A stretch of DNA of 64,000 nt from Elusimicrobiota bacterium (GTDB lineage Bacteria; Elusimicrobiota; Elusimicrobia; F11): contig JAJVIP010000005.1 of the NCBI GenBank assembly GCA_022072025.1, positions 1-64,000 of the forward strand. Reading direction: 5' to 3'. Of this stretch, positions 8,039 through 61,901 are shown one piece after another (the first letter of the stretch is position 1; every line of letters begins with the position of its first letter). The position numbers and the translations under genes are program-made. The notes below the pieces were generated by a model that was not told where the DNA came from, made no database searches, and was given only the letters and a program-made list of their open reading frames with translations.

Positions 8039-9081
8039 AAATGCCCTCGCTGATTTTTCTCCAATTCATCTTGGATTTTTTTGGAACGGAGCATTTGGTT
8101 GATGCGCTCCTCAGCCTCTCGTTCATATATTTTCAGACTCCATTTTTCCTGTTCTGATTTTGGAGCCCCAAATCGATACGTCACGCTCACTCTCTGGGCG
8201 TTGTCCAAATGTTGGATGAGGCTGAAGTTGTAATCGATCATGGCTTTCCCAATGGGAAGTCCCGCTCCCACGGTAAAGCCACCCAATTGATCCAATCCAT
8301 ATTGATAACCCACCCTGGCTTGCAGACCTCCCAACATGGTTTCAAACCCCATACGCCATTCAAATTGGCCTTCGTTCATGTGGAAGGGGACGTCGAACAG
8401 AAAAAGGGAGGAATCAGAGTTGGTGGGTGAATAGGCAGCGCTTACGCGGCCAATACGAGGCAGATCGACCGTTGTTTCATCGTAGGTCAAGCCATGGCCA
8501 ATATTTTGAAGGCTCGTTGCCAGGCGAAGATTTTTCGTGAGGTCTCGAGCCAAACCAAAGTCAAACGCCAGCGTACTGGCTTGACTGGTTTCAATGAGCT
8601 CCGAACGAAAGTATTTTGCCGACAGCCCCCAATCCCACTCGCCTTCGTTCTTGGCGAACGCCATGGTGAGGAGATAATCTGACTGCGCCGTCACGTTACG
8701 ACGTTGGCTTCCATCAAACAAATCAAACTCGCCGCCGTTGTAATAATACAAGGAGCTACCGATGGTTCCCCACTTCAATGGAAAACCCGAAGTCACCTGG
8801 CTAAAGCTATCATCCGTAAGTCCCTGGCCATATTGGAGGGACATCTCATTCGCCTCCAGTGTGGCGAGGGAGGCCGGATTATAGGCGGAGGCGCCCACAT
8901 TATCTTTATCCGCTCCCAAGGCTCCTGCCAAGGAGGTGGCCCGCGCGTCGACATCATTCATCAAGTTGATGCCCGCCGAAGAGCCAAGCCCCTGGGCAAA
9001 CAAAGGAGTAAGAGCCTTTCCCGACCAACCAAGGGAAATCGCAATCAACGCGAGGAATGTTAGGGCCTTTCTGTTATTCAT
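8029..9081 (-). CDS. PorV/UPF0164-like outer-membrane beta-barrel protein
   Basis: A 350-residue protein with a signal peptide (first ~30 residues, ending near FAQG). The N-terminal block has DVDARATSLAGA followed by SAYNPASLA, matching the conserved GARxxAMGxA...NPAxL start of PorV/PorQ-type (UPF0164) barrels. Alternating aromatic beta-strands follow, with a charged 40-residue C-terminal tail that may be periplasmic. In Bacteroidetes, PorV shuttles type IX secretion substrates; here the role is inferred from the neighbours, a second PorV-like gene, a protease with a sorting-like C-terminus, and the giant adhesin with which it overlaps. A GTAAC direct repeat abuts the start codon. Confidence 0.7.
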   Translation of the reverse strand: MNNRKALTFLALIAISLGWSGKALTPLFAQGLGSSAGINLMNDVDARATSLAGALGADKDNVGASAYNPASLATLEANEMSLQYGQGLTDDSFSQVTSGFPLKWGTIGSSLYYYNGGEFDLFDGSQRRNVTAQSDYLLTMAFAKNEGEWDWGLSAKYFRSELIETSQASTLAFDFGLARDLTKNLRLATSLQNIGHGLTYDETTVDLPRIGRVSAAYSPTNSDSSLFLFDVPFHMNEGQFEWRMGFETMLGGLQARVGYQYGLDQLGGFTVGAGLPIGKAMIDYNFSLIQHLDNAQRVSVTYRFGAPKSEQEKWSLKIYEREAEERINQMLRSKKIQDELEKNQRGHLWR

Positions 9082-9097
9082 GTAACAGAATGGTAAC
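9082..9097 (-). promoter_or_regulatory. GTAAC-N6-GTAAC direct repeat before PorV-like gene
   Basis: The plus strand reads GTAACAGAATGGTAAC, two GTAAC blocks 11 bases apart, touching the start codon of the gene ending at 8029. It resembles the repeats at 10144 and 12853. An 11-base direct repeat is the spacing used by OmpR/PhoB-family regulators, but a site this close to the ATG could equally act at the RNA level. Confidence 0.35.
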
Positions 9098-9188
9098 GGC
9101 CCCAGGTTAAGGGCGCTTTAAGGAGGGATTAATTTTCAGGGAATATCGTCGGAAAGTGTCCTTTCGTTGGTCTTCACATGAAGAGGAG

Positions 9189-10127
9189 TTATTGTTGGAT
9201 GGAATTGAACTTGTAGCCGATCGAAACGCGGTGAGAGATGCCCAAATCTCCAAAGGGAGAGACCGAATAATCTAAATTAAACCGGTTGAATGATATCCCT
9301 AAACCCGCGTTGAGGTTGGTCAATCCACCCAAATCAGTGGATTGGCCAGGTGTCAGAACATAACCACCGCGGAGGGCCAACAAACCAACCACCTGATATT
9401 CGACTCCTCCATGAATTGAGATATTGGCGTCATTTGGTTTTGAAAAATCCAAAGCCAAAAGCAATTTATCTTGGAGTACTTTGCGTGAAGCGCCGAAGCG
9501 AATTGTCATCGGAAGAGGAGCCGATTCTTGGACCATTTTCATTTTGGGACCGATGTGTTGAATGACGGCGCTCAGGTTCATGTCATTAAATTTATAGAGG
9601 GCGCCCAAGTCGAAGGCAAAACCGGAGGCTTTTTCCGATTCCAGTGTTTCGGAGATGTATTTGACGGTGGCTCCCAACATCCACGAGTCATTGAGTTGGC
9701 GGCCCAGCGAAATATTGGCGGCCATGGAGTTGGCGTCAAAACTTCCTTCTTTAACGTCAGCATTTGAATAGCGATCAAGAGTCCCATAATCAAGGCGCGA
9801 GAGGGAAAGGCCCATAACCCCGTGGGGGGTGGGCATAACGCCGGCCAGGTATTGATATTGGGTGTCCACCAAATGGGTGTTTTGCATGACCCCAATTTCT
9901 GGAGTTTCCAGTTGAGCCAATCCGGCGGGGTTCCAATAGGTCGCGGTCACATCATTTGAAACAGCGCTGTAAGCATTTCCCATGGCGGAGGAGCGCGCTC
10001 CTGCTCCCAACTTCAAAAATTGAGAGGCCGATGTACCGGTGGCAAACAGAGAGGGGACCAAAGTCATCATCCCAGCGGCCGCGACTAACATCGTTGATGT
10101 GGTTCGGATCATCTTTTTCATATCCAA
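9189..10127 (-). CDS. PorV/UPF0164-like outer-membrane protein
   Basis: A 312-residue protein with a signal peptide (about residues 1-30). It has a textbook PorV-family start: FLKLGAGARSSAMGNAYSA, then TYWNPAGLAQLE. Later strands such as GGYVLTPGQ and GLGISFNRFNLDYS are typical of the family's barrel. It is a closer match to the family consensus than the second copy at 8029-9081. The two copies are separated by 107 bases on the same strand, and the upstream gene encodes a candidate client with a FlgD/Por-like tail. A GTGAC direct repeat lies 17 bases before the start. No other type IX secretion component is in the window. Confidence 0.75.
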   Translation of the reverse strand: MDMKKMIRTTSTMLVAAAGMMTLVPSLFATGTSASQFLKLGAGARSSAMGNAYSAVSNDVTATYWNPAGLAQLETPEIGVMQNTHLVDTQYQYLAGVMPTPHGVMGLSLSRLDYGTLDRYSNADVKEGSFDANSMAANISLGRQLNDSWMLGATVKYISETLESEKASGFAFDLGALYKFNDMNLSAVIQHIGPKMKMVQESAPLPMTIRFGASRKVLQDKLLLALDFSKPNDANISIHGGVEYQVVGLLALRGGYVLTPGQSTDLGGLTNLNAGLGISFNRFNLDYSVSPFGDLGISHRVSIGYKFNSIQQ

Positions 10128-10143
10128 AACCTATCGGTAAGCC

Positions 10144-10159
10144 GTGACAGAACGGTGAC
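10144..10159 (-). promoter_or_regulatory. GTGAC-N6-GTGAC direct repeat before PorV-like gene
   Basis: The plus strand reads GTGACAGAACGGTGAC, two identical pentamers 11 bases apart, 17-32 bases upstream of the start at 10127. On the minus strand it reads as GTCACCGTTCTGTCAC, close to the 11-base-periodic PHO-box form known for PhoB. Function is inferred only. Confidence 0.4.
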
Positions 10160-10261
10160 TGTTGAAAGGTAGACGAGAGAAACTTTCGAGAAAGAAGTGT
10201 CATTTCTTAAGGCACCTCGGAGATTGTGAGGGCCCTTCAACCTATGGAGGGGGGCGGGCAT

Positions 10262-11728
10262 CTATCGAATCACTGCGATTTTTCCATCCTTTTTGTGGCC
10301 TGCTGTATCAGAGATCAGGTAATAATAGATCCCCGATGCGACGGGTTCTCCATCCTCGTTTTTGGCATCCCAAACGAGACTGAAGGCCCCAGATGCAGTT
10401 TCCTTACTAAAGACTGGTTCGCCGGCGATGGTAAAGATTTGGACTTTTGATCCAGGAGACAAATCGGTGAAGGTGACAGAGGAGTGGCCCAAATTGGAAT
10501 TGGGTTTAAATGGATTGGGATAGGCGTGGGCCAAATCTAAATTGGTTTGTGATCCGCCTGATCGGGTGCTGGGTGTTCCAGACCGCAGTGAAAAGGAAGT
10601 GGTGACTCTCAATTCGACGTCTTTTGCCGTGACGTTTTGGATGCTCTGATTGGAGGCGGATATAACAATGTTGAAGTTTTCGGTGGCACTGTCAAATAAA
10701 CCGTCGGAAGCATTGGTTGTGACCCAACTGCCATTATTCATGCGATATTCGACTTTCGAAATGGTGTCCAAGGTGAGGCCGTATCCTTGCGCATTGCCCT
10801 GTCTGGGAAGAATAACCACAGACGCCTGGCCTGAAAAACCAGCCCCCCCCAATTGCGAACCCGATGGAGTTAGCTCTGTTCGAGGGCTTTGATCCATGAT
10901 GTCGTCATATCCATTCCCGTTGGCATCTCTCCAACCGATGGACTCTTTGGCCCATTTGTCCAATCCCCACCGAATGCCGCCACGCATAATTGAATTGGGT
11001 TCATTGGCGATGCTGGAGTAAGCGTGATTGCCGTTGATGGTTGAAAAGTATCCCGTGCTGTAATCGCTGGGACCACTGGCCCCCGCATATTGGTCCAGCG
11101 CGTGAAAAATGTGGCCGGCCTCATGAGCGGCCACAACGGCCATATTATTGATGCCATAGCCATTGTTGTCATAGGTCATAACCATAAAGGGGCCACCCAA
11201 ATAGGCATAAGCGAAAAAGCCATCCGCGAATTTGCCATTGGTGTCATTGAGGCTGTCGACAACAAAAATGGTGAAAGCCCAATCCGCGCCATAGGCGTTT
11301 CTTTGAGCATTGGCGAATTGTCGGGTGGTGGTGAAGCGACTGCCGGAATATCCCAAGGTCGACATGATGCTTGGAATCCAGAGCGCTTCATCGTAATAGG
11401 GACGTGTGATCGGTTCATAGGGAACAGAAACCGTTTGACTCACCACCGTAAAACTCAAGGGAGACCGGGAATTTTGCTGTGTCCACCAATCCAGTCCCGA
11501 TATGATTTGGCTGAGGGCTTGAGTTTTTCTTTCTTCACTCCAATTTTCGGTGTTGGGATCAAGGGAACCATTGGATTCGGGGAAAATGACGGTTACAACC
11601 ACATTGCCCATCATAAAGTCGCTGGTATAGTTGGATTTGTCCAGCCCATAGGCGGTGAGTGTCGCGAATGAAATTCGAGTGAAGCCGACGAGAACAGAAA
11701 ACAGTAGGAGAGCGGTTCGTCGAATCAT
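10262..11728 (-). CDS. Secreted HExxH metalloprotease with C-terminal FlgD/Por-like sorting domain
   Basis: 488 residues with an N-terminal signal peptide (about 1-22). The zinc motif HEAGH lies at residues 202-206, inside AAHEAGHIFHALDQY, indicating a zincin metallopeptidase. The C-terminal ~85 residues (AYPNPFKP... then VQIFTIAGEPVF, GEPVASGIYYYLI and a final GKIAVIR) match the FlgD Ig-like/type IX sorting-like fold. Such a tail in Bacteroidetes sends proteins through the outer membrane with PorV. Two PorV-like genes lie just downstream, so this is a plausible client. Its start overlaps the preceding gene by 4 bases. The peptidase family was not identified more precisely. Confidence 0.75.
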   Translation of the reverse strand: MIRRTALLLFSVLVGFTRISFATLTAYGLDKSNYTSDFMMGNVVVTVIFPESNGSLDPNTENWSEERKTQALSQIISGLDWWTQQNSRSPLSFTVVSQTVSVPYEPITRPYYDEALWIPSIMSTLGYSGSRFTTTRQFANAQRNAYGADWAFTIFVVDSLNDTNGKFADGFFAYAYLGGPFMVMTYDNNGYGINNMAVVAAHEAGHIFHALDQYAGASGPSDYSTGYFSTINGNHAYSSIANEPNSIMRGGIRWGLDKWAKESIGWRDANGNGYDDIMDQSPRTELTPSGSQLGGAGFSGQASVVILPRQGNAQGYGLTLDTISKVEYRMNNGSWVTTNASDGLFDSATENFNIVISASNQSIQNVTAKDVELRVTTSFSLRSGTPSTRSGGSQTNLDLAHAYPNPFKPNSNLGHSSVTFTDLSPGSKVQIFTIAGEPVFSKETASGAFSLVWDAKNEDGEPVASGIYYYLISDTAGHKKDGKIAVIR

Positions 11729-39316: not shown

Positions 39317-40255
39317 ATGGATAAAACAACTCTAATTTTCGCATCGTTTTTACTTCTGTTTAACATCGCAGAAGTTAAAGCGTGGAGTTGGGATTCTCCG
39401 GAAAATGTGATGCCGAGTCTTCGCGAGGATTTGGACCGAGAAATTGCTGCTTACCGGCAACAGGTGCTAAACGGCATGAGTCTTCATGATCGCATCCTCG
39501 CTTTGGATCGATTAATTGATAATTACAAACCCATGGGAATTAACGTGGCTGAGTTGGAAACAGAGCGAGAGAGACTCATTTTGGAAGAAAAGCAGCAGCA
39601 GTTGCGTGCCGCGAATGCGCAGAACTCCGCGACCATCCTCTATGAGCGGGGCGTTACCGAATACAAAGAAGGTAATTATGAAACGGCCCGTTTAACTTTT
39701 ATCGAGGCGGAGCGTATGCTGCCTCAGGACAATTCGATCAAAGAAATCCGAAGACGTTTATCCAATATCACACCGATTCTGGAAAGTGAGGTGGGCAACG
39801 AAAAAGATTCAAAATTGATTCGCCTGGCCATCACGCGTTACATAGAAAACGATCCCAAACGCTCTCTCAACGCCTTGGCGTATGCCCAAGATAAAAAAAT
39901 ATCCCGTCCTGAATTGTCACGTTTGCGTCGTCTCATCGAAACCGATCATCCTGAGGTTGATATGCCGGATCTGCCCACGGGCCTTACTTTGGTTGACCAC
40001 AAACTGCAACTCACGCTCGAGGCCATTTATGATGGCAGATATCTTTCCGCGATTACTGAATGCACCGATGTGCTTGATTTGGAGCCCAGCAATGTGATGG
40101 CCCTCACGCGCTTGGGTTCGGCCTATTACGCTATGAATGAGCGTGATAAAGCCAAACAAATCTGGACCAAGGCGCTGCAACATGATCCCAACAATGACAT
40201 TCTTCGAAAATTTCTTTATGGAGCCAAAGGGGCGGGACGTGTTGAAATTCGTTAA
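39317..40255 (+). CDS. Secreted TPR protein of the motor operon
   Basis: 312 residues with a signal peptide (first ~22, ending VKAWS). A long charged helical region (about 30-110, coiled-coil-like, EKQQQLRAANAQ) is followed by TPR-type repeats (GVTEYKEGNYETARLTFIEA, then AIYDGRYLSAITECTDVLDL and GSAYYAMNERDKAKQIWTKA with DPNND after). It therefore acts in the periplasm or is outer-membrane attached. Its stop overlaps the FliF-FliG fusion by 17 bases, so it is co-expressed with the motor and may be a scaffold or cell-wall partner. Confidence 0.75.
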   Translation: MDKTTLIFASFLLLFNIAEVKAWSWDSPENVMPSLREDLDREIAAYRQQVLNGMSLHDRILALDRLIDNYKPMGINVAELETERERLILEEKQQQLRAANAQNSATILYERGVTEYKEGNYETARLTFIEAERMLPQDNSIKEIRRRLSNITPILESEVGNEKDSKLIRLAITRYIENDPKRSLNALAYAQDKKISRPELSRLRRLIETDHPEVDMPDLPTGLTLVDHKLQLTLEAIYDGRYLSAITECTDVLDLEPSNVMALTRLGSAYYAMNERDKAKQIWTKALQHDPNNDILRKFLYGAKGAGRVEIR

Positions 40256-41957
40256 ACCCCAGATAGGTTTTCTCATTCTCCTCGGTCTGAGTTTAATTTT
40301 CCCTTTGCGCGCTGAGCTTTCTTTGGACAGCGAACGCCTGGATTTGGAAATGCGCATGCAAAAAAGGGTTGAGGATGCATTGGGGAAAATATTGCCGGCC
40401 GGACAATTTGTGGTGGTCATTCGAATTGAGCCGCTGAACTTGGATAGCGGGTCTTCCGATAGCGGAGATCGCGGTGGCGAGGAATTCTTTTTGCCCGGCG
40501 TTCCTGCCAAGAAATCTTTTGATGGGGCTCAAGAAGAGATGAGGGATCTAGTCGACACGCTCAAGCCCGAAAACAAAATTTTTAAAAAATTTATTCGCCG
40601 TATACAGGTCACGCTCGTTCTCGACAAAGATTTGGATAATGACATCATCTCGAAGGTTCGTGAGTTAACCCGCCAACTGATCAGTTTGGATCCGGGGCGA
40701 GGAGATACTTTGGACATTCAGCGGACTGTTTTTACTAATAATATTGAGACGCAGATCAATCCAACCGGGATATTGAAAATCCAAAAAGATTTAAAGAACT
40801 ACTGGTTATTGGTGGTTTTGGTATTGGCGTTGTTTTGTATTGCCGTGTTTTTTCTCTTCATGTTTGGGCCGTTGCGGGGATTCCTCAATAACTTTGTTCA
40901 GATTTTGCCCACATTAAAACCACCGGACAATGGGCGTGGGCGCATGTCGATGGACATGCCCTATATGCCCCCCTACATGTCTCCCTATGGCCTGCCTCCT
41001 CCGGCGCAGCAAAATTCCTCGGCTGCTTTTTCAGGATCTCTACAGGTTGAAAACCCCAATAAAACAATATTGCCGTTTGGTTTCATTCGGGAAGATCACC
41101 TGAGTAATTTGGCGATTTTGCTTGCACGGGAGACTCCGGAGAAAGCTGCAGTGGTGTTGGGATATTTACCCTCTGAATGGATCAGCAAGGTGTTGTCCAA
41201 GTTGGATCCTTTGATGCAGTCCGAGGTGGCCTCTCATTTGGCGACAACTCGCCAATTGTTGCCGGAGCAAGTGGAGGACATTGAGCAGGATTTGAGGCGG
41301 CGGTTGGATTATCTCATCGGGGGGCCTGATCGAATCTTTTCAATATATGAATCTCTTGAAGTAGAAGCCCAAAAAAGGATGTTGGAGAGTCTCAAAGAAT
41401 CAAGGCCTGAAATTGTGGAAGAACTTCGTAAAAAGACCCTGATGTTTGAGGATTTGGAGAGGCTTGAATCCCCTTCCTTGCGGGCCGTCCTGAGGGAGGT
41501 GGACCTCCAAACGATTGTGACCAGTTTGAGGGGGGTGTCCGAATCGCTAAAGAAAAAAATATTGGAACACATGAGTGAAGGAAAAGCCGAGATTGTTCGC
41601 CAGGAATTGGATTTAAATGAAGGGGTCCTTGCAGGCAAAGCGACATGGGATGCCCAGAAAAAAGTGGTCTTAATCGCCAAACGCCTGGAGCGAGAAGGTC
41701 AAATTAATGTTCCCCATATTGAGAGTACACCATCAACTCGATTTGGAAACACTCTGCGCCAAACGATCAAGCTTCCTCCGGGTATACAATTTGAGGATGC
41801 CATCCCTGGTGAACAAATAAGTCGATATGAAAACAAATCAGTTGGAAACGACATTGGGGATCGTATCAAACGCTTTCTTGGCAAAGGTGGCGGAAATAAC
41901 ACTCCGGACAGATATCCCACCACTCCATCAGAACCTCCTGTGGGGGGTGATAAATAA
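40239..41957 (+). CDS. Natural FliF(RBM3)-FliG fusion, membrane rotor protein
   Basis: 572 residues from GTG at 40239, chosen for the AAAGGGG site six bases upstream; longer in-frame starts run into the TPR gene. Order: signal/anchor helix (about 9-26); periplasmic domain matching FliF RBM3 (EMRMQKRVEDALGKI near 37-51, and IRRIQVTLVLDKDL to GRGDTLDIQRTVF near 119-165); transmembrane helix about 188-211; Pro/Met-rich linker; then FliG middle and C-terminal domains (about 282-510), with LREVD, SLRGVSESLKKKIL, HMSEGKAE and IAKRLEREGQI. FliF and FliG are normally separate. The FliG N-terminal domain that binds FliF is absent, as expected in a fusion. MotA and two MotB follow. Confidence 0.88.
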   Translation: MLKFVKPQIGFLILLGLSLIFPLRAELSLDSERLDLEMRMQKRVEDALGKILPAGQFVVVIRIEPLNLDSGSSDSGDRGGEEFFLPGVPAKKSFDGAQEEMRDLVDTLKPENKIFKKFIRRIQVTLVLDKDLDNDIISKVRELTRQLISLDPGRGDTLDIQRTVFTNNIETQINPTGILKIQKDLKNYWLLVVLVLALFCIAVFFLFMFGPLRGFLNNFVQILPTLKPPDNGRGRMSMDMPYMPPYMSPYGLPPPAQQNSSAAFSGSLQVENPNKTILPFGFIREDHLSNLAILLARETPEKAAVVLGYLPSEWISKVLSKLDPLMQSEVASHLATTRQLLPEQVEDIEQDLRRRLDYLIGGPDRIFSIYESLEVEAQKRMLESLKESRPEIVEELRKKTLMFEDLERLESPSLRAVLREVDLQTIVTSLRGVSESLKKKILEHMSEGKAEIVRQELDLNEGVLAGKATWDAQKKVVLIAKRLEREGQINVPHIESTPSTRFGNTLRQTIKLPPGIQFEDAIPGEQISRYENKSVGNDIGDRIKRFLGKGGGNNTPDRYPTTPSEPPVGGDK

Positions 41958-42745
41958 TGGATTTGATGACTTTGCTTGGATGGGGGGTGGGACTGGGAGC
42001 TATCGGATGGGTGTTGGAGGCCGGGGGAATTTTGCATTTTTTCTTTAATGTACGTGCCTTTGTGTTGGTCTTTGGTGGGACATTGGGGGCGACAATGATC
42101 ACCTATCCTTGGGGAATTTTGAAGCGGGTGCCATATTCTCTTCTCTTATTTATATTTCCGGGAAGAGTGGAATCCGCGGACAGCGTGATGTCTCGATTGT
42201 TGACTTTGTCAAACCGGACACGCCGAACCAGTATGGAGAGTTTGGAGCAGGACATGCGAAAAACCCGAGATAATTTTCTGGCCAATGGGCTTAAAATGAT
42301 TGCTGATGGCTTGCCTCCCAATGTTGTTCGTTCCAATTTAGAAAAAGAAATTCATTTTATTCGGCTTCGACACAATGAGATATCAAATGTTTTTCGAAAC
42401 ATGGCCACTTATGCGCCGATTTTTGGTTTGCTAGGAACTTTGGTCGGGGTGGTGGAAGTGATGCTCAATTTGACCGATCCGCGAACAATGGGGATGCATA
42501 TGGCGGTGGCCATGACTGCCACCTTCTATGGGATTTTTGGGGCCAATTTCCTTTTTCTACCCATTGGGGGGAAGTTACAAGCCTATTCTGAACAAGAGCT
42601 GTTTTTAAAAGAAGTGATGATTGAAGGAATTCTATCCATTCAACGCCAAGAAGTTCCCGCAATTTTGACGAGGCGATTGGAAGCCTATTTGAACCGCAAT
42701 CACAGGGGAAAATTGGTCGTGGCTCAAGCCAGTGACGTTTCATGA
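41957..42745 (+). CDS. motA: MotA-type stator subunit
   Basis: 262 residues, four membrane segments. The first pair is near 10-55, a cytoplasmic loop of about 100 residues follows, and the second pair carries YAPIFGLLGTLVGVVEV and ATFYGIFGANFLFLPIGGKL, the hallmarks of MotA. By family knowledge it forms a pentamer around a MotB dimer and pushes on FliG. Its ATG overlaps the rotor-gene stop by one base and its stop overlaps the first MotB by four, so rotor and stator are co-translated. Confidence 0.93.
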   Translation: MDLMTLLGWGVGLGAIGWVLEAGGILHFFFNVRAFVLVFGGTLGATMITYPWGILKRVPYSLLLFIFPGRVESADSVMSRLLTLSNRTRRTSMESLEQDMRKTRDNFLANGLKMIADGLPPNVVRSNLEKEIHFIRLRHNEISNVFRNMATYAPIFGLLGTLVGVVEVMLNLTDPRTMGMHMAVAMTATFYGIFGANFLFLPIGGKLQAYSEQELFLKEVMIEGILSIQRQEVPAILTRRLEAYLNRNHRGKLVVAQASDVS

Positions 42746-43395
42746 TACATCGGCTGGTTCAATTTAAACATGATTCCCGCCTCGAAAACATTTGGCTCAC
42801 AGTCTACGCAGATCTGGTCACCAATTTGATGTTGGTTTTTTTGGCTCTTTATGGTTTGACTGTTATGGGCGATGATGCCTTGAGCCAGGCTCTTCAATCG
42901 ATGAAGCTCGATGAGATCTATTCACTTCAAGATGACGATCTGAGTTATGAAAACGTGGCTCCTGTTCTTCGGCAAAAATTCAAATCGTCCGCAGACGTTA
43001 AAATCACAGAGGAAGTTGACGCCATTCGCATTGAGTTTGGGGAAAACGTTCTTTTTAACTCGGGTTCTGCGCTGCCCAAAAAGGGGTCCGTTGAAGCCAT
43101 TCGAATGGTGGCCGAATTAATGAAAAATATTTCACATACGATAGTCATCGAAGGGCATACCGATTCCGTTCCGTTGGCCCGACAGGGACTTTACCGGGAC
43201 AATGAGGAGTTGTCTTTGGCCCGGGCCATGTCCATCGTTCGTCTTTTAATCGACCTTGGTATGCCCGCTGAAAAACTAGCCGCTGCGGCTTATGGCGCTC
43301 ATCGTCCGCGCGTATCGAATGACTCTGTTTCAGGACGACGAATCAATCGACGAGTAGAAATCGCGTTGTTTAAGGATTTTCCCTATGGCCGATGA
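42742..43395 (+). CDS. MotB-type stator subunit, paralog 1
   Basis: 217 residues: short cytoplasmic tail, one transmembrane helix (about 22-40) starting VYADLVTNLMLVFLAL with the proton-carrying Asp at residue 24, a linker, and an OmpA-like peptidoglycan-binding domain (GHTDSVP, SLARAMSIVRLL, GRRINRRVEIAL). All key MotB features are present. The tail and helix differ clearly from the second MotB directly downstream. Overlaps both neighbours. Confidence 0.9.
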   Translation: MIHRLVQFKHDSRLENIWLTVYADLVTNLMLVFLALYGLTVMGDDALSQALQSMKLDEIYSLQDDDLSYENVAPVLRQKFKSSADVKITEEVDAIRIEFGENVLFNSGSALPKKGSVEAIRMVAELMKNISHTIVIEGHTDSVPLARQGLYRDNEELSLARAMSIVRLLIDLGMPAEKLAAAAYGAHRPRVSNDSVSGRRINRRVEIALFKDFPYGR

Positions 43396-44074
43396 AAACG
43401 CTCCAGATGAAATAACAGACCAGGATTTGCCCGATCAATGGGAGGGCGCCAAAATACAAGCAGGTTTGAATGATCGCAGGTCCTCCCGGCAATTGTGGCT
43501 TATTTCCTACTCGGATTTTATGACCATTCTCATGATCTTTTTTCTTTCCATGTATGGATATACCTACCTTGCCAAAGCTACGTTGCTGAAAAATTCACGA
43601 AAAAAAAGTGATTCCGACTTCGTAAATCAAATAGCTGCTGTTAAAGAGAAATTGGGAAATCAAATCAAAATTCAAAGCGATGTCGATAAAGTGATAGTCG
43701 AGTTAAATGAAAAAATTTTGTTCCCAAGTGGGCAGGCAACGTTATCTAAAGATGCGAAAGCGCCGCTTGAAGAATTGGCCAAATCACTTAAGCTTATCGA
43801 AGGAGATGTGGTGGTCGAAGGTCATACGGATAATGTTCCCATCAAAAGTGGCACCTTCAAATCTAATTGGGAACTCTCCGCCGCTCGTGCCTTTTCAGTC
43901 ACCAAGGCTTTGGTGGCCCAGGGAGTTCCTCCCTCTCGTTTGGCCGCTTGGGGGTTTGGTGAAAATCGGCCTCGTGTGCCCAATGTGGATGACGCCAGTC
44001 GCGCCCAAAACCGGCGCATCGAAGTTGTGATATTAAGGAAGAAAGGAAAACAGGAGGCGGGTTATGGCAGCTGA
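43385..44074 (+). CDS. MotB-type stator subunit, paralog 2
   Basis: 229 residues: an acidic cytoplasmic tail longer than in paralog 1 (about 35 residues), a transmembrane helix beginning ISYSDFMTILMIFFLSMYGY with the conserved Asp at residue 44, a linker, and an OmpA-like domain (EGHTDNVPIKSG, NWELSAARAF, AQNRRIEVVIL). The NWELSAARA block is closer to canonical MotB than paralog 1. Overlaps paralog 1 by 11 bases and the regulator by 11. Confidence 0.92.
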   Translation: MADENAPDEITDQDLPDQWEGAKIQAGLNDRRSSRQLWLISYSDFMTILMIFFLSMYGYTYLAKATLLKNSRKKSDSDFVNQIAAVKEKLGNQIKIQSDVDKVIVELNEKILFPSGQATLSKDAKAPLEELAKSLKLIEGDVVVEGHTDNVPIKSGTFKSNWELSAARAFSVTKALVAQGVPPSRLAAWGFGENRPRVPNVDDASRAQNRRIEVVILRKKGKQEAGYGS

Positions 44075-45059
44075 AAGGATTGTTATTGTTGACGACGATC
44101 AACAGGTGGCTTCCTATGTCCGCTTGTCTTTGTCATTGGCGGGTTATGAGGTGGATTGGATTCCTGATGGGCGTGTGGCTGTTCAGAAAATCAGAGAAAA
44201 AATTCCCGACGCTGTTATTCTCGATTTAAAACTTCCTGGAATTAACGGTTTTAGAATATGCGAGCAATTGAGATTGGAACCCCAAACTCGTGCCATTCCT
44301 ATTATAGTGGTCAGTGGGAGTTGGAAAGATTCCCAAGACCGCATTCGATCCATTGAAGTCGGGGCCGATGATTTCCTTACCAAACCTTTTGACGCTCAAG
44401 AGCTCATCGCTCGACTGAAGCGAATGTTGCAACGGAAAAAAATTGATATGGGGCACAACCCTCTCACCGGGCTGCCTGGGAATTTAGCGATTGAAGAGGA
44501 ATCTCGTCGCCGTTTGGCGAGGAGTGGCTCAGTGGCATTTGCCTATATTGACCTCGATAATTTTAAGGCCTACAACGATGTGTATGGCGTAAAACAAGGA
44601 GATAAGGTAATTCGTTTACTCTCAGATTTATTGGTTCAGGCGGTTAAGCGGTGGGGGAATTCAGATGATTTTATCGGGCACATTGGGGGGGACGATTTTC
44701 TGGCCATAACATCCCCGGAAAAAGCGGCTACAGTGTTCGATTGGGTCGCCAAACGTTTTGATGAAAGAATAACTGCCTACTATTCCGACGCGGATTTAAA
44801 AGCAGGTTGTATTACTGCCAAAGACCGTCAAGGAAATATTAAGAAATTTCGATTTGTTTCCGCCTCTATCGTTTATCTCACCAATGAGAACATGGAGTTC
44901 ACGCAATATCCACTTCTTATTCAAGCGCTTACTGAGATGAAAGGATACGTCAAACACACCATGGAACGAAAAGGGGGAAGTGTGGTGTTCCGTGATCGTC
45001 GATCCACAGATGCAGTTAGCCGTTCCGCTCATCCCTTGGCTCCAAAAAAAGTTAATTGA
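44064..45059 (+). CDS. REC-GGDEF response regulator with GGDDF site and no I-site
   Basis: 331 residues with AGGAGG upstream. The REC domain (1-120) has the acidic pocket D10-D12, phosphoacceptor D54, S84 and K107. A GGDEF domain (about 130-300) begins DPLTGLP-like NPLTGLPG and carries YIDLDNFKAYND, but the active motif is GGDDF (208-212), and the inhibitory RxxD position reads NSDD (199-202). GGDDF proteins may still have activity, so c-di-GMP synthesis is uncertain. No cognate kinase is adjacent. As the last gene of the motor operon it plausibly sets motor output. Confidence 0.88.
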   Translation: MAAERIVIVDDDQQVASYVRLSLSLAGYEVDWIPDGRVAVQKIREKIPDAVILDLKLPGINGFRICEQLRLEPQTRAIPIIVVSGSWKDSQDRIRSIEVGADDFLTKPFDAQELIARLKRMLQRKKIDMGHNPLTGLPGNLAIEEESRRRLARSGSVAFAYIDLDNFKAYNDVYGVKQGDKVIRLLSDLLVQAVKRWGNSDDFIGHIGGDDFLAITSPEKAATVFDWVAKRFDERITAYYSDADLKAGCITAKDRQGNIKKFRFVSASIVYLTNENMEFTQYPLLIQALTEMKGYVKHTMERKGGSVVFRDRRSTDAVSRSAHPLAPKKVN

Positions 45060-55838: not shown

Positions 55839-58800
55839 TTAAGCGGCTGTGAGAACCGCGCGCAGGAATTGGTTGAGTTGTTTGAGTAGAAGGGAGGTGA
55901 TGGGGAAATACTTGTCGATTGAGATGAAACGTGGGTCGGTGATCCTGCCCTTTAAAAGGGAGGGAGGGACGATGTATCGCGTGGCACCTCTTTCTAAGAG
56001 AGAATCGACGGTCCAGGGGCGTTGGGTATATTCAATGGTTACCTCCCCTCGCATCAAATTGTTTCCTTTCAGATCGCGGATGGCTTGCTGAAGGGGTTCA
56101 CGGAGACGATCATCGACAAGAAAGGTTGTTTTCCCATCGCCGGTTTTTAGTAAGCAGAGCGCCATTTGAATCTTCGTAATATTTATCCCATCGTTAATTT
56201 CTGGGGTTCCCGTGAAATAGAAAAGAGTGGACCCACTTGTTGTGGCCGATGTGATGTCTGCCGTCTGAGCGGGTCCCTTCGCCCATACCAGCGCTGTTAA
56301 TAGGTCGGCGGTCTCAACGAGTTCTTGCGCGGACACTTTATGGCCGGCGGTTTTCTCTTTGAGTTGTTGGATCAATAAAGTTTTGAAATCCGGATCGGCC
56401 AGCCATTCCTCCAATTTCGCGAGGAGGGCCGCTTCAGTGTCAAATTGTGGAAGGTCCAAATCTCCTATCTTCATTGATTTTATGGGGAGAAGATCTCCTG
56501 GTGTTTTGTTGAGAAGGGCTCCCCCCATATTCGCCAGCCAAGCCGCGCCTTGTTGTTTGTCAATGTTGGTGGTATGAGAATCGACAGGGATTACTTTCCC
56601 CAAAATTTCCCGGGCTTTTTCCCTTAAATCTCCTCCTTGAATATTGTCTGCTATCAATTTCAGGTCAGCCCAATCTCTGAAAGTTACATTTCCCTCTCGC
56701 ACGCTCCCTGTTATGTGTTCAAGCAAATGTCGGTCAAATTCACCAGGGAAGAGACGGAATGTTCTTCCGTCTAAGATCAAAGCCAGGAGGGCATATCTCT
56801 TTTCTTTTCCTTGAAATTGTAAACCCCGATGAAATAATTGCATTTCAAGCCAAGACCTTCCTTCAAAGCCAGGGGAATTGCGCAGAAAGTCAAACGCCTC
56901 TTTCCATGCGTCATAGGATTGTGGGCTCGGTTTTGAAAGATAATCCTCAATTCGGGTTTTGGCCATAACCCATCGCATATTCCACCCATCAACAAGCAAT
57001 TTTTTCGCCAGAGATCTTCCCGCTATTCGTGGTATCTCGTTAATCATTTTGGAGTTTTCATGTGCCGGGATAGAAATTGGGTTTTGCGTTTGGATCCAGA
57101 GGTCCTTGCGAAGACGATTGATCTTTAGAGCCGTTTCTGAAAACGAAACTATCAACAAGCTGATCATCACACCCCAAAAAGACCAACGCACAAATTTAGA
57201 AGGTTCTTCTGATTTCATAAAAAAATGAAGGCAGAGCGATATCAAAACAATTATGAAGATCGGTATCCATAAAATCCATCCAATGGATTCCCGTAAAACG
57301 AAAAATAATAACGTTGTCGAGAAAAACCAAAATGTTGCGCTGCGGGTTTTAAGCGCTTGCCAAGCCAGTATAAGAAGCCCTCCGGCCAAGGCCGGTCGGA
57401 TAAAGGATCCCAGCGATGGATTTATAAAAATTGTCGAGATTGTTGCTCCCATTAGACCGATCCAAATAAACCAAACTGATCGAGGGCCATTTGGTTTATT
57501 GAGAAGGGTATGAGCCAATAGAGCTGAGGTCAAAAAGGCGAGGGCACTATCTCCTTGTATCCAAGCTGGAGAGCCGATGAATGAACTGTCCTCAGTCAAG
57601 TCAGGCATCTGCAACTTAGCAAGGAGATAGGTCGTCACAAACTCCATCATCAAAACCGCGAAAGCCGCAATGCGCGCAATGCCAGATGAGCGAGACAAAG
57701 GAATATCCCTTGGTTTATTCAAGGTTGATAGGGCTTTTCGATCATGAATAAAATGCCACACCATCATCCCGACTACGGGCGCCAATGCTCCGAATCCAAG
57801 TATGGGATAAAGAATAATACCGGCAGGATAGACCGTTATTAACAGCAGGAGTCGTCCGAATTGCTTAAGGTTCATCTGCGGATGCTCGAACAAGAAAACC
57901 ACCGTATTGGCGACGATCAAAAGGCCAATCACGATCAAAATATCGAGACCCGGATGGATCAACGATTGTTTGAAGATCGCGATGAGAGCCCAAGGGGCGC
58001 TCAAACGGAGAGCTTCGAAGATTGTTGTAAAGGCGGCCTCGATTGTGGGCAAATCACCACTGGAAATTGTCGTCAATAATTCCCAGATGGCACGAGTGGA
58101 AACCGCTTGAAGGGGAGGGGGACGACTGTTTCGGGTTCTTCTTATTAAGTCAACAAAAATCAGCAAGAGGAGAATTGGAACGATGGGGTAAGATAATACA
58201 AATGAAAAGGGGGTTGACCAAAAATGAACAATGGAAAAAACAAGGAGGCAGAGACGGGCAATAAAGCCCCATTGAAGATTTGAAGGGGACGGCCCTTTAG
58301 CCAATTCAGCAATGACCACATCATTATCTGAATCGTCTAGAGACCCAGAAGCGGAGGAAGGTGAGGCGTAGGGGTTTTCACTCGAATTCGGATCCGGATA
58401 AGTTTCAACGGTGTCTCGGTTTTTATAGTAAGCGTTCAATACGACATGGACGACCAGCCACAGAAGGCCATTAACGATCAATGTTTGCGATGGGTTCAAT
58501 GGAAACCACGCCATCATAAATCCTCCTATACTGGCGATGCGCGTGATCCATCCCGCTGTCACTCTATTCCTTTCCGCTTCTTCTTGATCACCCTTTGGAA
58601 CCAACTGCGGGGAATGCCCCAACATGAGGAAAAGGCCAATGAGACCGGTAAAAAACATTTGATGGACCATCGCATCCAAGGTGGGGAGCAGGAGCAAAGC
58701 GATATGCGCAAGTGCGTTGGTTAGAATTGTTTCAAGGAGGGGGGCTCCCCACTGATCGTACCGATCAGAGATTTTACTCTGCGAAGAATCTTTGATTATT

Positions 58801-61800
58801 AAAGTTTTCAACCACAACATCACCCCCTGGCCGGATGGCAGGGATTGGATTGATTTTTCCTTCGATCTAAAAACCGGAGCAGGGACCCAGAATCCCAATG
58901 TGACCCCATAGGCGATTTTTTGGAGCCAGCTTGTCCCTTTGATTGGATTATTTGATTCAACTATCTCAATATTATTTTGATTTTCTAATCGAATCTGGAT
59001 AATGGGAAAGATTTTCTCTTTTACAATCTTGATCGTTTGTTCTACCAAGGTAGATATTGTTTGATTTTTGTTATCCGACTTGGCATTTTTTATCATCCCT
59101 GGGTCACTCAATTCCTCACCATCCGACAACATTTGGAGCCACACCATTTTCCATCGATCAAAGGGAAAATTTTTCATGAGTTCGATAAGAATCGACTTGT
59201 CCACCGCCAATACAATGTCGTGGGCTTTGATCATTTTTTCCGAAATAGGTCGGCGTTCTTCTACAAGGGCGACTCCTTTTTTTTTCAGTTCTTTTTTCAA
59301 CTGAGGATCAGATACATAGCCACTTTTGGTTCGCCTTTGGATATAGGCGCTATCCGTTCCAGCCGATTGGATAATAATCTTGTTGTCAGCCTTTAACCTT
59401 TTAATGATTGTCCGAAGAACCGCTTCCAACGCCCGGCTTCGGTAATAATTTTTGCTGCAAACAATAAGAATACGAAGGGGTCGGGAAAGGGGATGTTTAT
59501 TTATCAATTTTTCAAAATCAGCCCCGATCCATTCCTCTTGAACACGGCCTGCCAAGGCCAATGGAAATAGGGGGAAAAAATATGGGGAGAGGGATTCAAT
59601 GTAATTAAGTTTTTTTTGAGGATGGGAATCATCATCCGCTTCTTTTTTTTCTTTTTTTGAAAACCAAACTCCAAGAAGAGAGGTTTGAAGCGTGTTTCTG
59701 TAAATATAAAGGATGTTCCACAATAAATAGTTTGTAGCTCCAGAAATGATTCCGATCCTTCCAGGAATGAGCGCCGGAATAAAGATGAAAGCCGCCAAAA
59801 ATAAGAGGCGCCGTATCAAATGTTTATCGATAGGGGTCGAGGAAGATTTTTTCCCATGGAGACCCGCCCACTTGAGAACCAACACATGCAGAAGGAAAAA
59901 GAAAGCCACAAGAACTTTATCGGAATAAATTAACGCTGATTCATTCCCGTTGTGAACGGGATTAAAGGGAGAGAATAAGTTAAGTAAAACGATATAGACC
60001 GTGGCCATAAGCGACATTGTGAAAGGATGAGTTGTGGCTCGGATGACGCGGGTTTTGTCAAAAATTATCCCGCTCTCCGTCTTTTCATTAGAAGAATGAA
60101 ATGAGAACCGTAATTTCCCTCTGCGAAATGATTTCGGGTAACGCCATGTTTCAAAAGAAATGATGGATCTCAATAAGGATCCCGATAGAAGCGCCATTTT
60201 TGAAAGCGGATTCGGCCGCGATCCAATAGCCGTGTGGGCGGAGGCCAGAAAAAGTTTTTGCCCTTCAAATAATCGATCGAGAGGGGTTTTTTCCTGGGAG
60301 AAAATCGAGAGATAGGCGCTTCCATTGTCTTCCTCAATCACGGTTATTTTTGGCGAGACAACAAGGTGGGAGATATTCTCCTTTCGCAGGATTTTTGAGA
60401 TTTCCGCTGTATGAAATCCGCCTGTCACCAAAACTCTTGAAACCTCTGTCCCCACGGGTTGAGACAAAAGATTCTTAACGATTGACCGACTGCGCAAATC
60501 GGCTTCTTTATAAAAAGATTCAAAGGGGTGAATGTCTATTTTTTCCAAAGACGAAACCAAATCTTTTATGTTTTCTGGTATTTCCGACTGAGGACGGATT
60601 TGGAGGCGCCGATAATCCTCCCACTCCTCCGGTGTTAGGGAAAAATCGGCAAGCTTTTTTGTTAGGTATAGACGAGTCCCCAACTCCCATACCCTCTTTT
60701 CGAGGGGTGTTAGGGCCACATGCTGGAGTATCTCCTGTTCCAGGATTTTGATTTCAGAAAATAAAACTGAAGGTTTGATGCTGTCGCAAAGCAGGACGTA
60801 ATGGATGTAGCTGGCGAAGGCCGGGGCAGATCTTAAAGGGATTTTCTTTTGTTCACAGAGGTCCTTAAATTGTCCATAGAAATCTCCGAAACTCAAGTGT
60901 CCCAGCCGAACCGCAAGGCTGTTCTTTATTAATTCGGTGGTTTCGTTCTGGTTGATGGAATGCGATAGCCTTTCCATGACGGAGCGGCGTTCCTTTTCGA
61001 TCTGTTTGAAGTCAAGCGAGGATTCAAGTTTATAAGCCTCTAAAAAAATCTGGAGGTTCGAGTCTTTATCGACGTGTCCTCCCCATTCCTGGAGTTTGGT
61101 CACGTAACTCCCCAGCCCGATTTCATTCTTGTTATGGGCCGAACTTAGGGCATCAAATTCGAGGGTTTTTTCTGAGAATACTTTTCTTTTGGTTTCCAAT
61201 AGCTGGAGGTCCATTAACTCCAGGTTTTTGACGATCATGGGTTTCTGATCGCGAGACGTCAGATAGGCTTCAACATTTTTTTGATAATGGACGGGATCAT
61301 CCACCCCCACAAACAATGGGATTTCCACGGGACTGGTAATGCCGACATAGGAGGGGGCGGCAAGCAAGTTTTTTTTAAGAAAATCTTGGGTCACATTTCG
61401 CGTGATTTCTTTATCGGGGAAGGATCGGAAAGGAGAGAAGTCAAAGGGGTTGAAAGCTCCCTCCACGCCCACCACTCCCACTTGTCTTTGGTTGATCAAT
61501 TCCTGAAGGAGCGCGGCGATATTCTTCTGAGCTTCCTCGTTTAAATGGACATCCTGAACCAAAACAACGGGGGGATGTTTCACTTTTCCTTCAGCGTACA
61601 CTTCTTGAATTAATCCATGAGCGAGCGAGATGGAGTTCAGCAGTTTTTTTAGCGGCGCGCTGATTTGATGGGGATGGCCTTCAACGTGAATCCTTTTCAG
61701 TGATTGTTGAGAAAAGGCCGCATCAAGGGGGGGAAACGGGAGGCGCATTGGTTGGGGCAGTGAGGCCAAGCGTAGTGAATTTGTCTCTTTTTTCCGTTCT

Positions 61801-61901
61801 GCCCAAAAGTTGGTTTCAGAAGCTCCTACCAAAACAACCTGGGTGGTGAAATAGAGAATAAGGGTGAAGATTGAGAAACAATAGCGTGCTTTGGGTTTCA
61901 T
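55839..61901 (-). CDS. Giant polytopic protein with N-terminal ChaN/TIKI-like and embedded LMW-phosphatase-like domains
   Basis: 2,020 residues. A signal peptide (about 1-28) precedes a soluble domain (about 100-540) with QDVH (116-119), VEG (146-148) and GGFH (494-497), which recall the ChaN/EreA/TIKI hydrolase clan. After a first group of membrane helices comes an LMW-PTP-like domain (about 807-965) with VCSKNYYRS, a CX5R site (C815, R821), and DP at 933-934. About 14 further helices (about 1055-1600) follow, then a soluble helical C-terminus. I do not recognise the whole protein. Function is unknown; the combination suggests envelope signalling. Confidence 0.75.
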   Translation of the reverse strand: MKPKARYCFSIFTLILYFTTQVVLVGASETNFWAERKKETNSLRLASLPQPMRLPFPPLDAAFSQQSLKRIHVEGHPHQISAPLKKLLNSISLAHGLIQEVYAEGKVKHPPVVLVQDVHLNEEAQKNIAALLQELINQRQVGVVGVEGAFNPFDFSPFRSFPDKEITRNVTQDFLKKNLLAAPSYVGITSPVEIPLFVGVDDPVHYQKNVEAYLTSRDQKPMIVKNLELMDLQLLETKRKVFSEKTLEFDALSSAHNKNEIGLGSYVTKLQEWGGHVDKDSNLQIFLEAYKLESSLDFKQIEKERRSVMERLSHSINQNETTELIKNSLAVRLGHLSFGDFYGQFKDLCEQKKIPLRSAPAFASYIHYVLLCDSIKPSVLFSEIKILEQEILQHVALTPLEKRVWELGTRLYLTKKLADFSLTPEEWEDYRRLQIRPQSEIPENIKDLVSSLEKIDIHPFESFYKEADLRSRSIVKNLLSQPVGTEVSRVLVTGGFHTAEISKILRKENISHLVVSPKITVIEEDNGSAYLSIFSQEKTPLDRLFEGQKLFLASAHTAIGSRPNPLSKMALLSGSLLRSIISFETWRYPKSFRRGKLRFSFHSSNEKTESGIIFDKTRVIRATTHPFTMSLMATVYIVLLNLFSPFNPVHNGNESALIYSDKVLVAFFFLLHVLVLKWAGLHGKKSSSTPIDKHLIRRLLFLAAFIFIPALIPGRIGIISGATNYLLWNILYIYRNTLQTSLLGVWFSKKEKKEADDDSHPQKKLNYIESLSPYFFPLFPLALAGRVQEEWIGADFEKLINKHPLSRPLRILIVCSKNYYRSRALEAVLRTIIKRLKADNKIIIQSAGTDSAYIQRRTKSGYVSDPQLKKELKKKGVALVEERRPISEKMIKAHDIVLAVDKSILIELMKNFPFDRWKMVWLQMLSDGEELSDPGMIKNAKSDNKNQTISTLVEQTIKIVKEKIFPIIQIRLENQNNIEIVESNNPIKGTSWLQKIAYGVTLGFWVPAPVFRSKEKSIQSLPSGQGVMLWLKTLIIKDSSQSKISDRYDQWGAPLLETILTNALAHIALLLLPTLDAMVHQMFFTGLIGLFLMLGHSPQLVPKGDQEEAERNRVTAGWITRIASIGGFMMAWFPLNPSQTLIVNGLLWLVVHVVLNAYYKNRDTVETYPDPNSSENPYASPSSASGSLDDSDNDVVIAELAKGPSPSNLQWGFIARLCLLVFSIVHFWSTPFSFVLSYPIVPILLLLIFVDLIRRTRNSRPPPLQAVSTRAIWELLTTISSGDLPTIEAAFTTIFEALRLSAPWALIAIFKQSLIHPGLDILIVIGLLIVANTVVFLFEHPQMNLKQFGRLLLLITVYPAGIILYPILGFGALAPVVGMMVWHFIHDRKALSTLNKPRDIPLSRSSGIARIAAFAVLMMEFVTTYLLAKLQMPDLTEDSSFIGSPAWIQGDSALAFLTSALLAHTLLNKPNGPRSVWFIWIGLMGATISTIFINPSLGSFIRPALAGGLLILAWQALKTRSATFWFFSTTLLFFVLRESIGWILWIPIFIIVLISLCLHFFMKSEEPSKFVRWSFWGVMISLLIVSFSETALKINRLRKDLWIQTQNPISIPAHENSKMINEIPRIAGRSLAKKLLVDGWNMRWVMAKTRIEDYLSKPSPQSYDAWKEAFDFLRNSPGFEGRSWLEMQLFHRGLQFQGKEKRYALLALILDGRTFRLFPGEFDRHLLEHITGSVREGNVTFRDWADLKLIADNIQGGDLREKAREILGKVIPVDSHTTNIDKQQGAAWLANMGGALLNKTPGDLLPIKSMKIGDLDLPQFDTEAALLAKLEEWLADPDFKTLLIQQLKEKTAGHKVSAQELVETADLLTALVWAKGPAQTADITSATTSGSTLFYFTGTPEINDGINITKIQMALCLLKTGDGKTTFLVDDRLREPLQQAIRDLKGNNLMRGEVTIEYTQRPWTVDSLLERGATRYIVPPSLLKGRITDPRFISIDKYFPITSLLLKQLNQFLRAVLTAA

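Follow-up and report, generated by a model that had tools for sequence, protein, structure and literature searches.

A candidate flagellum-free rotor–stator machine with a FliF–FliG fusion in Elusimicrobiota

A six-gene cluster in the window

The window considered here is a stretch of 64,000 nucleotides from Elusimicrobiota bacterium GCA_022072025.1 (contig JAJVIP010000005.1, positions 1–64,000), a genome that is 100% complete. Six genes on the same strand occupy positions 39317–45059, each overlapping the next by 1–17 bases (Table 1). The initial annotation had read this run as a TPR protein, a fusion of RBM3-like domain, membrane helix and FliG, a MotA, two MotBs and a response regulator; that reading is confirmed, coordinates included. 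For the fusion, an in-frame ATG is present at 40137, but the GTG at 40239 is the likelier start because it is preceded by AAAGGGG. A related genome (L043) contains the same cluster between the same flanking genes (leuA, FHA, IDH, EF-Tu), again with the REC-GGDEF gene next to MotB2; this synteny rules out misassembly or contamination. Neither an adhesin nor a barrel adjoins the operon in the window.

Table 1. Genes and domains of the cluster (positions in the window).
Feature	Position	Strand	Basis
Secreted TPR protein, 312 aa, signal peptide	39317..40255	+	TPR Pfam matches
FliF-RBM3/TM/FliG fusion, putative rotor subunit, 572 aa, GTG start	40239..41957	+	
RBM3-like periplasmic domain of fusion, aa 27–163	40317..40727	+	AF2 fold order, Foldseek
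TM helix of fusion, about aa 190–208	40806..40862	+	Hydropathy; AF2 long helix 179–222
FliG middle domain of fusion, aa 290–357	41106..41309	+	Pfam FliG_M 5.6e-12
FliG C-terminal torque domain of fusion, aa 383–490	41385..41708	+	Pfam FliG_C 1.5e-22, Foldseek 1qc7
MotA, flagellar class	41957..42745	+	PDB 9lu9, NCBIfam, residues
MotB1, TM Asp and OmpA domain	42742..43395	+	
MotB2, TM Asp and OmpA domain	43385..44074	+	
REC-GGDEF response regulator, GGDDF signature, likely regulator	44064..45059	+	

Properties of the rotor, stator and accessory proteins

The FliG part of the fusion is recognised by sequence; a search of the PDB returns Thermotoga maritima FliG (1lkv) at 1.8e-30 across residues 277–491. 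The Pfam model for the FliF C-terminal region (PF08345) reaches only E = 0.085 in the window protein, and matches six of the 14 aligned members of the fusion family, at best with 9.6e-6. The AF2 model is of moderate confidence (mean pLDDT 61.8; RBM3 helices and strands mostly 55–81), with a disordered linker and C-terminus. Its predicted order is helix 27–51, strand 57–64, strand 121–129, helix 134–148 and strand 157–163, followed by the TM helix and FliG; the RBM3-like domain is thus modelled as helix–strand–(insert)–strand–helix–strand. When this model is compared with known structures by Foldseek, the N-terminal part retrieves FliF RBM3/MS-ring structures (8ftf at 8.5e-4, and about 15 more, probability 1.00), and the FliG part retrieves 1lkv (1.5e-11) and 1qc7_B (TMt 0.92, rmsd 1.4), in agreement with the RBM3-like and FliG-like domains first proposed. 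The RBM3-like domain is the sole FliF portion, unaccompanied by a separate full-length FliF (RBM1–RBM3).

Among 48 fusions surveyed for the residues of the FliG part, position 264 is basic in 36, position 288 acidic in 35, and position 289 Glu in 31. The His of the FliM-binding EHPQR motif is retained in none of the 48. R281 and R297 are also lost, and the torque chemistry must therefore differ in part. As a minimal natural rotor, the cassette could show which torque residues are indispensable.

The window MotA belongs with the flagellar proteins, matching flagellar MotA in the PDB (9lu9) at 5e-44 and NCBIfam models of the flagellar MotA type with values as low as 6.6e-54, with equivalents of R90 and E98 retained. 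Both window MotBs have a channel Asp in the transmembrane segment and a C-terminal OmpA domain. In half of the MotB pairs (13/26), this proton-binding Asp has been lost from exactly one partner, while every pair keeps it in at least one; single MotBs keep it in 28/28. The MotB axle is probably a MotB1–MotB2 heterodimer, and such pairs provide a natural instance of a proton site lost from one of two axle subunits; for AglQ/AglS, heterodimer formation is listed as unknown (PMC9389320). Taken together, sequence and predicted structure make a strong case for the identity of the rotor (FliF-RBM3 with FliG M/C) and the stator.

The TPR protein shares 32% identity over 200 aa (E = 3e-30) with the TPR tail of the PorV-like barrel at the second rotor locus, and is likely to be a periplasmic link. 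The last gene of the cluster encodes REC and GGDEF domains; the initial annotation was right in this domain assignment, while cyclase activity is uncertain because the signature is GGDDF.

Distribution, genomic surroundings and known relatives

The FlhA export gate (FHIPEP) gives no match in the genome, with the control positive in four flagellates, and neither does FliM/FliN (FliMN_C), whose positive controls also worked. These negatives bear out the claim that a flagellar gene set is missing. Rod, hook and flagellin genes are presumably absent too, since the export gate is missing. The genome has no ordinary fliG of the flagellar kind at another locus, as its only two FliG_C matches are both fusions. 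The missing FHIPEP and FliMN_C and the predicted structure lend good support to the suggestion that rotor and stator move a non-flagellar load.

Across 120 Elusimicrobiota genomes, FliG_C is found in 41, with up to five copies per genome, and FHIPEP in one. The family was searched with a FliG_C-only profile; membrane fusions account for 84 of the 85 FliG_C genes read, the exception being the ordinary fliG of the one flagellate with FHIPEP. Of 83 fusions, 48 have a MotA on their own strand no more than 8 kb away, 72 have a relative of the window TPR protein, and 25 have two MotBs. A narrow profile scan of named genomes, built on exact motifs that cannot show absence elsewhere, yields 14 fusion loci, all in Elusimicrobia/Endomicrobia. 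The window fusion groups with its relative in the tree (100/100), inside an open 10-row group (90/91) in which several operons have two MotBs. What emerges is a conserved, multi-copy rotor–stator cassette without export machinery and with candidate cargo; it suggests that the Elusimicrobiota, a little-known and almost entirely flagellum-free phylum, have put a rotary engine to a new use in moving cell-surface cargo. A natural FliF–FliG fusion outside flagella is not described in the literature searched, which was mainly open-access published papers.

The candidate cargo comes from other copies. The second fusion of the genome is placed behind a giant surface protein and a PorV-like barrel with a TPR tail; the surface protein spans at least 8,354 aa, is FlgD_ig-ended and bears a sorting end of T9SS-like type. 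The same locus also encodes MotA, MotB and coiled coils. For a homologue of its barrel-TPR protein, the closest counterpart of the predicted structure is PorV from the T9SS translocon. In several rotor subtypes, the association with PorV-like barrels and giant surface proteins recurs. The genome as a whole encodes 25 FlgD_ig-like protein ends and 15 PorV/UPF0164 barrels, one PorV/PorQ family member being in the window at 9189–10127 (184 bits, cut-off 90). Eleven of the 15 barrels lie within 0.7 kb after the end of a sorting-domain protein; a sorting-end gene followed by a barrel is the layout of SprB–SprF-type carrier pairs (PMC12635249). The cassette is an engine candidate for an SprB–SprF-like surface system beyond Bacteroidota.

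Several known machines share parts with this one. Like the bacterial flagellar motor, it has FliF RBM3, FliG M/C, a flagellar-class MotA, and MotB with TM Asp and OmpA domain; in contrast to that motor, FliF and FliG form one chain that lacks RBM1, RBM2, the FliF-C tail and an intact FliG_N, FliM/FliN and FlhA are missing, and the EHPQR motif, R281 and R297 are lost. Laboratory FliF–FliG fusions of Salmonella and Vibrio, in which the FliF ring domain is likewise covalently bound to FliG, still form rings (e.g. 8z4d, PMC6079021, PMC11481574); those are designed and full-length, whereas the fusion here is natural and without RBM1/2 and intact FliG_N. With Bacteroidota T9SS/gliding, the common features are giant surface proteins, FlgD_ig/CHU_C-like ends, PorV-like barrels after them, a candidate SprA-like gene, and the proposal that a proton motor shifts the carriers over the outer membrane. 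The motor here is, however, MotAB with a FliG rotor, not GldLM (the GldM negative being uncontrolled), the barrel has a TPR tail, and the SprA match falls under the curated cut-off. Myxococcus AglRQS-Glt also combines one MotA-type and two MotB-type proteins with TPR partners, free of a flagellum, but here MotA is of the flagellar class rather than TolQ-like, OmpA domains are present in the MotBs, and the machine includes a FliG rotor, a part missing from Agl; the window TPR protein matches GltE only weakly, through TPRs. Zorya defence was rejected: PADLOC matches only the MotBs, to ZorB (shared OmpA/plug homology), and none of MotA, fusion or TPR protein.

Proposed mechanism and alternatives

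The best reading (probability roughly 0.58) is a non-flagellar rotor–stator whose MotB axle is probably heterodimeric and which powers adhesin carriers of the outer membrane in a gliding-like manner. The locus would encode a membrane rotary motor made from flagellar motor parts. The fusion would form a ring through its periplasmic RBM3, like FliF in the 33–34-mer S-ring, with FliG M/C borne by the same polypeptide on the cytoplasmic side; with both in one chain, FliF-C/FliG-N docking, RBM1/RBM2, FliM and FliN would therefore be unnecessary. MotA and a peptidoglycan-anchored MotB1–MotB2 axle would use the proton (or sodium) gradient, and the stator would push on FliG_C, turning the ring. Periplasmic TPR proteins would link the ring with PorV/SprF-like barrels in the outer membrane that carry giant adhesins; rotation would then move the adhesins, probably for gliding, and the REC-GGDEF protein would probably regulate the motor. 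Ring assembly, rotation, TPR coupling, adhesin movement and the cargo of the window copy are all inferred. For gliding, which the initial annotation had offered as an example, the support comes from giant surface proteins and PorV-like carriers at paralogous and related loci, not from the window locus itself. A more novel proposal, put forward tentatively and at slightly less than even odds, is a new class of surface-motility machine, in which a fused FliF–FliG ring and an obligate MotB1–MotB2 axle (one proton site being enough) drive giant adhesins in PorV/SprF-like carriers, so that flagellar motor and T9SS-type display are joined in Elusimicrobiota gliding.

Alternatively, the motor could supply the energy for T9SS-like export, so that its work would be to free sorting-domain proteins from a SprA-like translocon and not to move the cell. 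The genome encodes a SprA-like protein of 1822 aa (TIGR04189, 3e-26; 91 bits, below the cut-off of 200) besides its PorV-like carriers and sorting-domain proteins; Pfam SprA_N gives no match in a search without a positive control, while the NCBIfam SprA model did match. SprA-like matches, all sub-cut-off, occur in 105 of 120 phylum genomes, including all 41 with FliG_C (hypergeometric 0.001, kinship ignored), and a single motor drives export as well as gliding in Bacteroidota (PMC12635249). GldM was not found, but that search had no working positive control. Against this, 64 of the 105 SprA-bearing genomes have no FliG_C; the rotor is therefore inessential for SprA-type export. Its linkage, moreover, is to adhesin loci and not to the SprA gene neighbourhood read. 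This export role is judged unlikely.

Somewhat less likely again is a rotary or force-generating machine that acts within the envelope and involves no surface adhesin, for instance in pulling of the TonB/Tol kind, in work on the cell wall or cell shape, or on an internal filament. In its favour, no adhesin gene adjoins the window copy, proteins with TPR and OmpA domains would be enough for such tasks, and large probable coiled-coil proteins accompany other rotor copies; the repeated linkage to barrels and giant surface proteins speaks against it. Flagellar gene remnants are known in other taxa (PMC12199754), and the loss of R281 and R297 together with the decayed FliM-binding motif could point to a remnant of a lost flagellum, or to domains of flagellar type that now serve as a static scaffold. 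This is very improbable, given the multiple copies per genome, the strong retention of the architecture, of basic 264, acidic 288–289 and of stator linkage, and a channel Asp kept in every single MotB and at least once in each pair.

The operon and its fused rotor protein

Six genes with overlapping ends lie on one strand at window positions 39317-45059. The initial annotation had read them as genes for a TPR protein, a FliF/FliG fusion, MotA, two MotB proteins and a GGDEF regulator, and the domain matches (see table) bear this out. Residues 277-491 of the fusion match T. maritima FliG in a sequence search of the PDB (1.8e-30). The PF08345 match to its N-terminal part is weak (E = 0.085), reaching 9.6e-6 in relatives.

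Features of the rotor loci, the T9SS-like export system and candidate cargo
Feature	Position	Strand	Remarks
TPR protein	first gene of window operon	+	signal peptide predicted
Fusion, 572 aa	40239-41957, second gene	+	FliG_M 5.6e-12, FliG_C 1.5e-22
MotA	third gene	+	MotA_ExbB 3.5e-23
MotB1, MotB2	fourth and fifth genes	+	OmpA/MotB_plug domain matches
REC-GGDEF protein	44064-45059, last gene	+	domain matches
M6-protease-like protein	10262-11728	-	T9SS-type sorting end; upstream of barrel
PorV/PorQ family barrel	9189-10127	-	184 bits, cut-off 90
Probable further barrel	8029-9081	-	
Very large membrane protein	55839-61901	-	2020 aa
SprA/Sov-like protein	L138:4992-10460 (own genome, contig C2, about 481-486 kb)		1822 aa; TIGR04189 91 bits, 3e-26, under curated cut-off
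Giant surface-protein open frame, second rotor locus	C14:1-25065 (stretches L139 and L003)		at least 8,354 aa, as the frame runs off the contig start; FlgD_ig-like end
Very long protein downstream of a rotor gene	L046:10203-15758		C-terminal TPR

The AF2 model of the fusion, computed from an alignment of 14 family members, has moderate confidence (mean pLDDT 61.8). It places a helix-strand-insert-strand-helix-strand order at residues 27-163, followed by a long transmembrane helix and then FliG. Searched against the PDB with Foldseek, the model retrieves FliG first (1lkv, 1.5e-11; 1qc7, TMt up to 0.92); next comes a series of FliF RBM3/MS-ring structures (8ftf, 8.5e-4; 8t8p, 7cg7, 6sd1 and others) with probability 1.00. 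Both independent halves of the predicted structure thus match the expected folds, RBM3 and FliG, as proposed from the sequence.

In flagella, RBM3 alone builds the FliF S-ring, and RBM1/2 contact the export gate. Since RBM3 suffices for the S-ring, a chain of RBM3, transmembrane helix and FliG could form a ring; this would need no FliG-FliF docking, no RBM1/2 and no C-ring. OmpA-anchored stators would push FliG_C, presumably causing rotation, and the periplasmic face of the ring would pass force through TPR proteins to outer-membrane carriers and adhesins.

The REC-GGDEF protein carries the signature GGDDF, likewise in the syntenic locus of a related genome (L043); to judge by this motif, cyclase activity is uncertain.

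A rotor apart from flagella

In the window's own genome (3.64 Mb, 100% complete), FHIPEP (the export gate protein FlhA) and FliMN_C (the switch proteins FliM/FliN) gave no match while positive controls did; hence neither an export gate, flagellar or injectisome, nor a switch complex is encoded. For these components, the earlier remark that other flagellar genes are not visible holds genome-wide. The sole other FliG_C gene, on contig C14, likewise encodes a fusion (26% identity, 507 columns).

Among 120 Elusimicrobiota genomes, 41 contain FliG_C, in up to five copies each, and one contains FHIPEP. A transmembrane segment precedes FliG in 84 of 85 distinct FliG_C genes read; the remaining gene encodes a normal 355-aa FliG and comes from the sole FHIPEP-positive genome. 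An apparent second non-fusion gene, L130, proved to be a fusion once a gene-calling error was corrected. MotA lies no more than 8 kb away on the same strand for 48 of 83 fusions; two MotBs accompany 25 of them and a relative of the window TPR protein 72, all lower bounds because of contig ends. A motif scan for named relatives matched exclusively Elusimicrobia/Endomicrobia MAGs.

Very long proteins (about 1600-2100 aa; L046, similarly L062, L084, L091 and L095), coiled coils by appearance, are encoded directly downstream of many rotor genes and are a possible cytoplasmic partner.

Stator-type proteins occur in Agl and Gld motors too, but those lack the FliG rotor present here. Because the system lacks features that define the flagellum and Agl, and the tests made so far do not place its motor in the GldLM type, it is classed as a putative new kind of machine made of known parts. 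In one survey, 11% of non-motile species carried rotor proteins, for which another function was suggested (PMC12199754). No description of such a system was found among the journal papers searched.

Torque residues and MotB pairs

In 48 fusions aligned on Salmonella FliG, position 264 is basic in 36, position 288 acidic in 35 and position 289 Glu in 31; R281 and R297 are mostly lost, and none has the histidine of the EHPQR motif that binds FliM. R90/E98 and both prolines are conserved in the window MotA. Retention of the torque contact with loss of FliM docking would be expected to leave this pattern.

The channel Asp is present in both members of 13 of 26 adjacent MotB pairs and lost in exactly one member of the other 13 (L048, L052, L057, L067, L075, L097, L103, L104, L106, L107, L111, L114, L116), never in both. 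Its replacements are Asn (10), Ser, Ala and Gly (1 each), and the Asp-less MotB is the second gene in 12 of the 13. Single MotBs keep Asp in 28 of 28 cases (paired versus single, Fisher 0.003, counting subunits and uncorrected for kinship); the spread of the 13 losses over 13 separate pairs is not significant alone (p = 0.13). The simplest reading is a MotB1-MotB2 heterodimer with the essential site on MotB1. Both window MotBs keep Asp.

T9SS-like export and candidate cargo

T9SS is described as Bacteroidota-confined in several papers. Matches similar to the SprA-like protein, likewise under the cut-off, occur in 105 of the 120 genomes, including all 41 with FliG_C. As 64 genomes have the SprA-like gene but no FliG_C, the rotor seems to be an optional extra, not the basic energy source of export.

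The C14 locus encodes, in order, the giant frame, a barrel-TPR protein, a rotor that itself carries a TPR tail, a pair of long proteins (coiled coils by appearance), MotA and MotB. For a homologue of the barrel-TPR protein, taken from a named relative, structure prediction gives a barrel (about 14 strands) with a TPR tail; its top PDB matches are PorV from the T9SS translocon (6h3i_F, 8gl6_F, 1.6e-8), then FadL/TodX. The window TPR protein shows homology to the TPR tail of the barrel-TPR protein (3e-30). In the own genome, 11 of 15 PorV-like barrels are encoded immediately behind a protein with a sorting-domain end, the layout of SprB-SprF type pairs, whose carrier is linked to a periplasmic track that moves (PMC12635249).

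No giant surface protein or barrel adjoins the window operon; about 28 kb from it, at 8029-11728, are a sorting-domain protein and PorV-like barrels. L048, a relative of the window subtype by tree, has a TPR gene nearby as well as a giant surface protein of the FlgD_ig/fn3 kind. The N-terminal region of the 2020-aa window protein resembles, by eye, that of another large protein, encoded close to the second rotor (L004:8104-10758, QDVH motif region).
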